Shown here piece after piece: positions 12,995 to 20,280 of a DNA stretch of 64,000 bases; positions within the stretch are counted from its first letter, which is position 1; each line of letters opens with the position of its first letter. The stretch spans positions 496,001-560,000 of the forward strand of contig NZ_WNXZ01000002.1 of assembly GCF_009733845.1 (NCBI RefSeq). Direction: 5' to 3'. The stretch is from Pseudactinotalea terrae. Its GTDB lineage: Bacteria > Actinomycetota > Actinomycetes > Actinomycetales > Beutenbergiaceae. The notes under the pieces were generated by a model. The model saw only the letters and a list, made by a program, of their open reading frames with translations. It searched no databases and was not told the origin of the DNA. Both the position numbers and the translations under genes were made by a program.

Positions 12995-14731
12995 TCAGTA
13001 CACGTCGCGGACGTAGCGCTTGGTGCGCTTGAGGTCGTTGACGTACTCCGCGGCGCGCTCGCTGCGGTCCGTGCCGCCGAGCTGGGACGCCACGATCTCG
13101 AGCAGGGCTGCGTCGACGTCCTTCGCCATCCGGGTCGCGTCGCCGCACACGTACACGTACGCGCCGTCCTCGAGCCAGCCGAACAGGTCGGCGGCGTGCT
13201 CGCGCATGCGGGTCTGCACGTACATCTTCTCGGCCTGGTCGCGCGAGAACGCGAGATCGAGCCGGGTCAGCAGGCCGGCGTCGGCGTGCGCCTGCAGCTC
13301 TTCGGCGTAGATGAAGTCGCTGGCCTGGTGCTGGTCTCCGAAGAAGAGCCAGTTCGGGCCGGTCGCGCCGGTGGCCGCACGCTCCTGCAGGAATGCCCGG
13401 AACGGCGCCACACCCGTGCCGGGGCCGATCATGATGACCGGGCGGTCGCCGTCGGCGGGCAGCCGGAAGGCTTGGTTCGGCTGCAGGAAGATGCCGGCGA
13501 CGTCCTCGGCGCCCACGCGGTCGGCGAGGAACGTCGAGCACACGCCACCGCGCACCCGGTCGGAGCCGTGACGCACCGATGCCACCGTGAGATGGATCCT
13601 GTCGGGGCTCGCGAGAGGGCTCGAGGAGATCGAGTACGCGCGGTGCTGCAACGGCCGGAACAGCGCGGCGATCTCATCCAGCCCGAACGTGGGCGCGGCG
13701 TTCAGCTCGAGCAGGTCGAGCGTGTCCTTGCCGTACAGCCAGTTCTCCAGCGGCTCCCGATCCTCGCGCTGCACGAGCGCCGCGAGCTCGCCGCCGGGGT
13801 TCCGCTCGGCGAGCGCGGCGATCAGATCCTTCGACGGCGTCCGGATCTCCCAGCTGTGCAGCAACGCGTCCGTGAGGGTCGTGCCCGCGACCTCTGCCTC
13901 CGCATCGTGCCCCAGCACGGACACCAGTGCCTCGGCCAGCGCCGGGTCGTTGCGCGGCATCACGGCCAACGCATCACCGGCCGCGTACTCGATGCCCGAG
14001 TCGCCGAGCGCGAGCTCGAGGTGCCTGATCTCCTTCGCGCTGCCCGCGCGGGACAGCACACGGTTCTCCACGAGCCGCGCCGGGAACGGGTTCTTCCTGT
14101 TCCACGCCGATCGAGCTCTCGACGGCGCGGCCTCGCCCCCCGCGGCCACGCTCGCCCCCGCGGGGGCTTGCTTGGCCAGCGCCTCGACGACGGTCTGGAT
14201 CCACCCGGCCGCCTCGTCCTCGTAGGAGACGTCGCAGTCCACACGCGGCGCGAGCCGCTGCGCACCGAGCTGCTCCAGCCGCATGTCGAGCAGCTTCCCG
14301 GCCTCGCAGAAGTTGTCGTAGCCGGTGTCGCCCAGGCCCAGCACCGAGAACTGCAGCGACTCCAGCCGCGGCGCGCCCTCGTCGGTCAGGGCCTCCCAGA
14401 ACAGCTCGGCGTTGTCGGGCATGTCGCCCTCGCCGTAGGTGGAGGTGATGATGAGCACGTGCCCGAGCTCGGCGAGCGCCTCGGGCGTTACCGCGTCCAG
14501 CGGCTGGATGGTGGCCGCGACACCCCGGTCCCGGGAGGCTGCCACGAAGTCCTCGGCGAGCATCTCGCAGTTGCCGGTCTGGCTGCCGTAGAGCACGCTC
14601 ACGGTCAACGAGGGCGCGGGCCCGGCCGGCACGTCCCGGTGCGCTGACGCCAACCCGGCGAGAAACCCGCCGAGCCAGCTCTGCTGAGCGGTGCTGAAGG
14701 GCGCGTCCGGTGGGATGAAGAGGGCACTCAT
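12995..14731 (-). CDS. CysJ-like diflavin (FMN/FAD/NADPH) reductase, coupled to glutamate synthase
   Basis: A 578-aa flavoprotein of the sulfite reductase alpha/cytochrome P450 reductase family. The FMN flavodoxin domain has YGSQTGNCEMLAEDF and STYGEGDMPDNAELF (about residues 55-190). FAD motifs are RAYSISSSPL and GGVCSTFL. NADPH motifs are IGPGTGVAPFRAFLQE and YVCGDATRMAKDV, and the C-terminus KRYVRDVY is classical for CysJ. CysJ passes electrons from NADPH to the sirohaem protein CysI, but no CysI is encoded here. Instead, its ATG overlaps the stop of a glutamate synthase gene (ATGA), so the likely partner is that enzyme. It ends two bases beyond the 52-bp repeat array. The family call is firm; the partner is inference. 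Confidence 0.9.
   Translation of the reverse strand: MSALFIPPDAPFSTAQQSWLGGFLAGLASAHRDVPAGPAPSLTVSVLYGSQTGNCEMLAEDFVAASRDRGVAATIQPLDAVTPEALAELGHVLIITSTYGEGDMPDNAELFWEALTDEGAPRLESLQFSVLGLGDTGYDNFCEAGKLLDMRLEQLGAQRLAPRVDCDVSYEDEAAGWIQTVVEALAKQAPAGASVAAGGEAAPSRARSAWNRKNPFPARLVENRVLSRAGSAKEIRHLELALGDSGIEYAAGDALAVMPRNDPALAEALVSVLGHDAEAEVAGTTLTDALLHSWEIRTPSKDLIAALAERNPGGELAALVQREDREPLENWLYGKDTLDLLELNAAPTFGLDEIAALFRPLQHRAYSISSSPLASPDRIHLTVASVRHGSDRVRGGVCSTFLADRVGAEDVAGIFLQPNQAFRLPADGDRPVIMIGPGTGVAPFRAFLQERAATGATGPNWLFFGDQHQASDFIYAEELQAHADAGLLTRLDLAFSRDQAEKMYVQTRMREHAADLFGWLEDGAYVYVCGDATRMAKDVDAALLEIVASQLGGTDRSERAAEYVNDLKRTKRYVRDVY

Positions 14732-20280: not shown

Follow-up and report, generated by a model that had tools for sequence, protein, structure and literature searches.

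Glutamate synthase (GOGAT) is central to nitrogen assimilation, and its electron input in bacteria is taught as coming either from the GltD subunit or from ferredoxin. Here we examine a gene pair of Pseudactinotalea terrae, lying in a stretch of 64,000 nucleotides (the window; contig NZ_WNXZ01000002.1, positions 496,001 to 560,000 of the forward strand), in which a gene for a long GltB-like large subunit overlaps that for a CysJ-like diflavin reductase. We propose, with a probability of about 0.86, that the two form a two-subunit NADPH-dependent glutamate synthase in which the reductase replaces GltD. The proposal is based on invariant catalytic residues, on a pairing that is kept across distant hosts, and on genomes in which no other GOGAT was found.

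The closest described systems each share part of this arrangement. With the GltB-GltD enzymes (PDB 6s6s, 1ea0, 7mfm), the long GltB has in common the four large-subunit domains, their order, the catalytic residues and NADPH as the presumed donor; it differs in its diflavin partner, in an x5,x3 spacing of the cluster cysteines, in an insert and in a C-terminal extension. Ferredoxin-dependent GOGAT (Fd-GOGAT; PDB 1llw, 1ofd) has a homologous large subunit, and one-electron entry at the [3Fe-4S] cluster without GltD would be a further likeness, but the long GltB lacks the ferredoxin-loop insertion and always comes with its own reductase. CysJ (PDB 6efv, 9c91) has the domain order, the N-terminal PF..Q..W..GF..G segment and the RDVY end of the window reductase, which is, however, the partner of GltB and not of CysI and does not reach the TIGR01931 cut-off. 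The diflavin nitrate reductase of mycobacteria, NasN (Tan et al., 2020, cited in PMC10704036), is likewise an enzyme of nitrogen assimilation that contains a diflavin module, but it is one polypeptide fused to a molybdopterin enzyme; the window reductase has three flavoprotein domains and no such fusion. A relative of the window host (G053) does encode a fused molybdopterin-oxidoreductase/diflavin protein of 1358 residues (L106, 3-4076) with a diflavin part 45% identical to the window reductase, and we ourselves assign this protein as NasN-like. In the full-text literature, outside which most subscription journals stand, no diflavin donor for GOGAT was found described.

The pair comprises the following features, in window numbering and with residue numbers of the long GltB referring to an open frame of 1880 codons:

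14728..20280, minus strand: long GltB-like glutamate synthase large subunit, 1850 residues (Pfam domains, homology)
19009..20229, minus strand: class II glutamine amidotransferase domain, with Cys1 at residue 48 (PF00310, GATase_2)
18058..18900, minus strand: central domain (PF04898, Glu_syn_central)
17233..17877, minus strand: family-specific insert, residues 832-1046, absent from the canonical GltB of the host
16324..17250, minus strand: flavin mononucleotide (FMN)/synthase domain (PF01645, Glu_synthase)
16438..16470, minus strand: [3Fe-4S] cysteine motif C-x5-C-x3-C (canonical, C-x5-C-x4-C)
15484..15996, minus strand: GXGXG domain (PF01493)
14731..15330, minus strand: family-specific, all-helical C-terminal extension, residues 1681-1880
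14728..14731, minus strand: ATGA, overlap of the long GltB stop and the reductase start (read directly)
12995..14731, minus strand: CysJ-like diflavin reductase, 578 residues, with an RDVY end (Pfam Flavodoxin_1, FAD_binding_1, NAD_binding_1)

The 1880-codon frame spans 14728-20370 on the minus strand. Because homology to the long GltB begins near residue 38 in nearly all relatives, translation probably starts at the ATG of MDLRRATLYNP (base 20280), which would give 1850 residues. Codon-position guanine-plus-cytosine (GC) content supports both frames of the pair, with third-position values of 0.95 and 0.94. A preliminary description of this DNA had reported an 1850-residue GltB-like gene, the ATGA overlap and a 578-residue FMN/FAD/NADPH reductase (FAD, flavin adenine dinucleotide) with a CysJ tail; its coordinates proved correct, and a C-terminal RDVY closes 80 of 80 aligned reductases. 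The long GltB scores 1007 bits against NF008730 (GltB), narrowly missing the cut-off of 1047. A scan for promoters and terminators gave 0 and 1 sites, with no excess over shuffles.

The catalytic anatomy of a glutamate synthase is intact. Cys1, the nucleophile, and four other glutaminase residues are invariant in the 80 aligned members, as are the three [3Fe-4S] cysteines and the equivalents of Fd-GOGAT E903, K972, Q978 and R992, which we take to form the 2-oxoglutarate site. Around this conserved core lie features that set the family apart. The cluster motif CVMAKNCN[IVL]xCP, with its x5,x3 spacing in place of the x5,x4 of the solved GltB and Fd-GOGAT structures, is present in 84 of 85 loci, the one miss (L045) being a delimitation error. 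The loop after GEGGE, the place of the ferredoxin insertion of Fd-GOGAT, has 5 residues fewer than its counterpart in NADPH-type GltB, and on these grounds we rejected an identity with Fd-GOGAT. Both the insert and the C-terminal extension are kept across the family. At E<=0.001 the insert (model mean pLDDT, the predicted local distance difference test, 75; first 48 residues mostly below 50) has neither a sequence nor a fold match in the PDB, and the extension has no fold match there. Pfam finds no family common to members in the insert, and in the extension a weak TetR_C_16 match in 10 of 31 members. Judged from the alignments, the cluster spacing, the shortened loop and the added domains would suit a different electron partner.

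The reductase is kept beside the long GltB with great regularity. We scanned named-species genomes with the reductase as query, and the counts given here refer to the best 80 of at least 591 relatives; together with five plasmid loci these make a set of 85. The long GltB lies directly upstream of the reductase on the same strand in all 80 named loci, which belong to Actinomycetes and to Alpha-, Beta- and Gammaproteobacteria, so that the co-occurrence proposed in the preliminary description is borne out. Of the 85 loci, 26 have overlapping genes, 34 a gap of 0-30 bases and 25 a wider gap, two of these last (L045, L062) being frame-delimitation artefacts. The pair is adjacent in all five plasmid loci fetched; four are annotated as 'glutamate synthase-related protein' or gltB next to 'sulfite reductase ... 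alpha' or cysJ, and the fifth record is unannotated there. Trees and the GltB alignment were built from 79 loci plus the window, leaving out three loci with GltB in two frames (L062, L065, L069) and three at contig ends (L005, L010, L073), and an Azospirillum canonical GltB delimited in a wrong frame was disregarded; for structure alignments, 30 of the 80 members with less than 80% identity were chosen and one plasmid row was then removed. Tree distances of GltB and reductase correlate with r 0.94 (a value reached in 0 of 1000 permutations), and the two trees have 53 of 77 splits in common, an agreement part of which may reflect host relatedness. In the drafts L062, L065 and L069, the break of the long GltB over two reading frames is either sequencing error or real damage. 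Two loci have a second diflavin-reductase match downstream of the pair: L017, and the actinobacterial L104, where the match is partial (2235-3359; 48% over query positions 210-578).

These data bear on whether the reductase could be an ordinary CysJ, serving a sulfite (or nitrite) reductase and standing beside gltB by chance. Its closest solved relative is indeed the E. coli sulfite reductase flavoprotein, it bears the RDVY tail, and it passes the cut-off of NF004859, 'sulfite reductase subunit alpha', with 443 against 432 bits. However, it misses the curated cysJ equivalog TIGR01931 (585 of 668 bits), and the host genome, in which this is the only diflavin reductase, has no NADPH-type CysI over the cut-off (best CysI-model match 112-156 of 756.55 bits), its sulfite/nitrite-type protein being NirA-like. 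The absence of cysI reported earlier for the window thus holds genome-wide for the NADPH type. Across 44 pair genomes, the CysI model finds no match at all in 9 and a match over the cut-off in 6. Adjacency to gltB by chance in 80 of 80 loci and four classes is not credible, and we strongly disfavour an ordinary CysJ as a most improbable reading.

A ferredoxin or flavodoxin might instead serve the long GltB, with the reductase merely reducing that carrier. Fd-GOGAT establishes that one-electron donors are possible for GltB-type enzymes, and the flavodoxin-like domain of the reductase could in principle reduce such a carrier. Against this stand the shortened loop at the ferredoxin-insertion site and the fact that the pair is kept together with agreeing trees, while the neighbourhoods of the 85 loci contain no third gene recurring at a fixed place across groups; we consider a separate carrier very unlikely. 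A larger gene cluster was likewise rejected, as only the pair itself (and antisense frames of it) recurs in nearly all 85 loci. The 14 Erwiniaceae loci have a common synteny of their own around the pair, and a few neighbour clusters reach 16-21 of the 85 loci at scattered positions.

Genomic support for glutamate synthesis comes from genomes in which no other GOGAT was found. In the 80 named genomes we scored every GltB candidate and up to 27 or 31 top-ranking GltD candidates per genome. A canonical GltB is found in 50 of them (in G094, G099 and G102 as pieces on separate contigs), all 50 with a GltD match, which in eight alphaproteobacterial genomes falls below the TIGR01317 cut-off (388-417 bits). 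The other 30 yielded no GltB besides the long one, and among the candidates scored, 28 of these have no GltD at E<=1e-60. The remaining two, G125 and G137, have GltD-model matches of 330 and 301 bits in frames of 656 and 651 residues, which we read as AegA-like and not as convincing GltD. The lack of a convincing GltD thus applies to 30 of the 80 genomes and not to the other 50. These 30 comprise 14 Erwiniaceae loci (two recorded as Enterobacter), 11 metagenome-assembled genomes and, as the remainder, Leucobacter weissii, one Streptomyces, two Methylobacillus and one Pseudovibrio (Polycladidibacter). The loci L039 (Enterobacter ludwigii) and L064 (E. cancerogenus) have Pantoea/Erwinia synteny, fall among Pantoea in the GltB tree and are probably mislabelled. 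Glutamate dehydrogenase was searched for in 13 of the 30, in the host and in four others; the host and 8 of the 13 have matches above 130 bits, and the other five (one isolate, four metagenome-assembled genomes) have weak matches or none.

One of the Erwiniaceae connects the family to a phenotype. According to PMC12364357, which cites Hara et al. (2012) for the phenotype, Pantoea ananatis AJ13355 has no close homologue of the E. coli GOGAT, its putative gltB is 64% identical to an Agrobacterium large subunit, and a gltB knockout is auxotrophic for glutamate. The long GltB is the only GltB in P. ananatis LMG 2665 (L042); it is 67-68% identical to the long GltB of five Agrobacterium/Rhizobium loci and 37% identical to the canonical GltB of the window host. 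Because of this identity to the Agrobacterium long type and its status as sole GltB, the gene knocked out (PAJ_RS19710) very probably belongs, by sequence, to the same family as the window GltB; the published 64% fits the long type only. The paper treats it simply as the large subunit of GOGAT and has 0 occurrences of 'sulfite reductase', and its gltB passages name no reductase. The function in vivo rests on this one large-subunit knockout, known to us through the later paper.

The auxotrophy also bears on whether the enzyme might be something other than a glutamate synthase, aminating a different 2-oxo acid or making a special product. Its 38% identity to the canonical GltB of the host, the altered cluster loop, the two added domains and the gltBD already present in many pair hosts would all fit such a divergence. 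The invariant 2-oxoglutarate-site residues, the P. ananatis phenotype and the lack of a biosynthetic cluster around the pair argue otherwise, and we give a different reaction little credence.

Several findings weigh against the glutamate synthase that we propose. The 30 genomes with a single GOGAT are not independent, since 14 are Erwiniaceae with common synteny and 11 are metagenome-assembled genomes. Many pair hosts, that of the window included, also have their own gltBD. A CysI over the cut-off is present in at least 5 of the 30 single-GOGAT genomes (13 searched), and the NF004859 match of the reductase belongs on the same side.

In the glutamate synthase that we favour, glutamine would be hydrolysed at Cys1 of the long GltB and the ammonia released would pass to the FMN/synthase site, where 2-oxoglutarate would be aminated and reduced. 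Electrons from NADPH are expected to pass first to the FAD and then to the FMN of the reductase, and from there by way of the [3Fe-4S] cluster to the FMN of the long GltB. It is possible that the flavodoxin domain docks near the [3Fe-4S] loop, and that the insert and the C-terminal extension have roles as well. The preliminary description had already suggested that the reductase feeds NADPH electrons to this GltB. We infer the same transfer, and the suggestion gains support from the 80 of 80 pairings, from the 30 of 80 genomes in which neither another GltB nor a canonical GltD was found, and from a host with a single diflavin reductase and no NADPH-type CysI. Because a GltD partner and the canonical cluster spacing were both looked for and neither was found (the reductase stands in GltD's place in 80 of 80 loci, and the GltD of the host pairs with another GltB), the pair is no GltBD enzyme, yet it would function like an NADPH-GOGAT, and we class it as a variant of glutamate synthase.

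The host genome indicates how the pair came to be there. Away from the window, another gltB, of the canonical kind (1623 bits), lies beside a gltD (668 bits). The earlier report of no gltD is therefore uncontradicted for the window but does not extend to the genome, which combines a canonical gltBD with the lack of an NADPH-type cysI. The host also has a glutamate dehydrogenase candidate, a NirA-like protein upstream of cysD and cysN, and nirB. Since it keeps a canonical gltBD, the pair is an addition and would be a second GOGAT. The surroundings are as follows:

11294..12634, plus strand: aminotransferase gene flanking the pair (PF00155), labelled dapC in the preliminary description
20281..20624, no strand: gap between the pair and the divergently transcribed citrate synthase gene
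20625..21938, plus strand: citrate synthase gene flanking the pair (PF00285)

Among 59 genomes of the host and its relatives, the window-type reductase is found in the host and in congener G001 (86% identical) only; other diflavin proteins occur in G053 (48%, fused) and G028 (35%), and the rest have weak matches or none. In G001 the pair lies between the aminotransferase and citrate synthase genes, as it does in the window. These two genes are direct neighbours in all 11 relatives that we fetched out of 25 that have no pair and an aminotransferase match, with 49-905 bases between the aligned parts. No convincing remnants of the pair were seen in the matching gap of congener G002. This adjacency in pair-less relatives indicates, from gene order, that the pair entered the host lineage or genus as a unit, as had been surmised. 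With the C-terminal extension as query, 3 of 396 actinobacterial genomes, the host among them, gave a match, and the reductase lies alongside in both others; the pair is therefore rare and patchy among Actinobacteria. In the gap between aminotransferase and reductase, a 52-base unit is repeated 5.2 times (94% matches) at 12727-12995, up to the reductase stop.

Upstream regions were scanned, without prior plan, for Fur, IdeR/DtxR and GlnR sites, which led to a controlled test with a 19-mer IdeR/DtxR consensus on 405-base upstream regions; loci that lacked a recognised 5' end (among them L103, L005 and L010) were left out of the scans. Nine of 31 actinobacterial regions have an IdeR/DtxR-like box with 3-5 mismatches upstream of the long gltB. 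The corresponding figures are 0 of 1240 for first-order resamplings and 3 of 1658 for 405-base windows elsewhere in these sequences; the carriers are Herbiconiux, Microbacterium, Mycobacterium/Mycolicibacterium, Streptomyces, Tsukamurella and one further actinobacterium. The gene upstream of the box was examined in eight of the nine. Six run in the same direction and have no link to iron (Fic, Rv3818-like, Lhr helicase twice, FG-GAP, potassium transporter), and two are divergent (CbiM, GNAT acetyltransferase). Because these genes are mostly codirectional and unrelated to iron, the box most likely belongs to gltB.

Canonical GltBD has two [4Fe-4S] clusters and one [3Fe-4S] cluster (PMC8097209), so that 8 of the 11 iron atoms would be saved by the exchange. 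Beyond our main claim we put forward, at about even odds, an iron-sparing synthase in which a flavin-only reductase reduces the iron per unit from 11 atoms to 3, induced on iron limitation through IdeR/DtxR-family boxes in some Actinobacteria, most of which also have their own gltBD, and acting as sole GOGAT under other control in Erwiniaceae and others. Points against the role of iron are that neither the window nor its congener has a box in the 405 bases scanned (9 of 19 mismatches each), that 22 of the 31 regions have none at the threshold, and that one carrier, the Streptomyces locus L022, has no canonical gltBD. No iron box was seen in 7 aligned Erwiniaceae upstream regions. Across 83 upstream regions, Fur boxes gave a mean best mismatch of 8.5 against 8.6 in shuffles, with single low values in L074 (4) and L098 (5), and a GlnR-type pattern occurred in 1.

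Two further observations concern the surroundings of gltB in other groups. A palindrome, TAnGTnAGCAnnnCTGACnTA, lies upstream in 16 of 32 alphaproteobacterial regions at <=5 mismatches, against 2 of 960 resamplings, its consensus having been built from the same Rhizobiaceae rows as were scored; the loci include L036, L037, L040, L044, L047, L066, L067, L098, L055, L072 and L095. On a conjugative Ketogulonicigenium plasmid (L097, 21071-27835), a hypothetical gene comes after the pair, and then an AraC-type regulator and genes for siderophore uptake; the Ketogulonicigenium papers that a literature search listed contained nothing relevant.

If the proposal is true, a flavin-only electron input to glutamate synthase is kept in four bacterial classes. 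In the 14 Erwiniaceae genomes examined, which include that of the industrial glutamate producer P. ananatis, it would serve the one GOGAT that was found. Annotation, metabolic models and ideas on the swapping of redox modules would then change. If the link to iron is true as well, it would mean that iron is spared at the centre of nitrogen metabolism.
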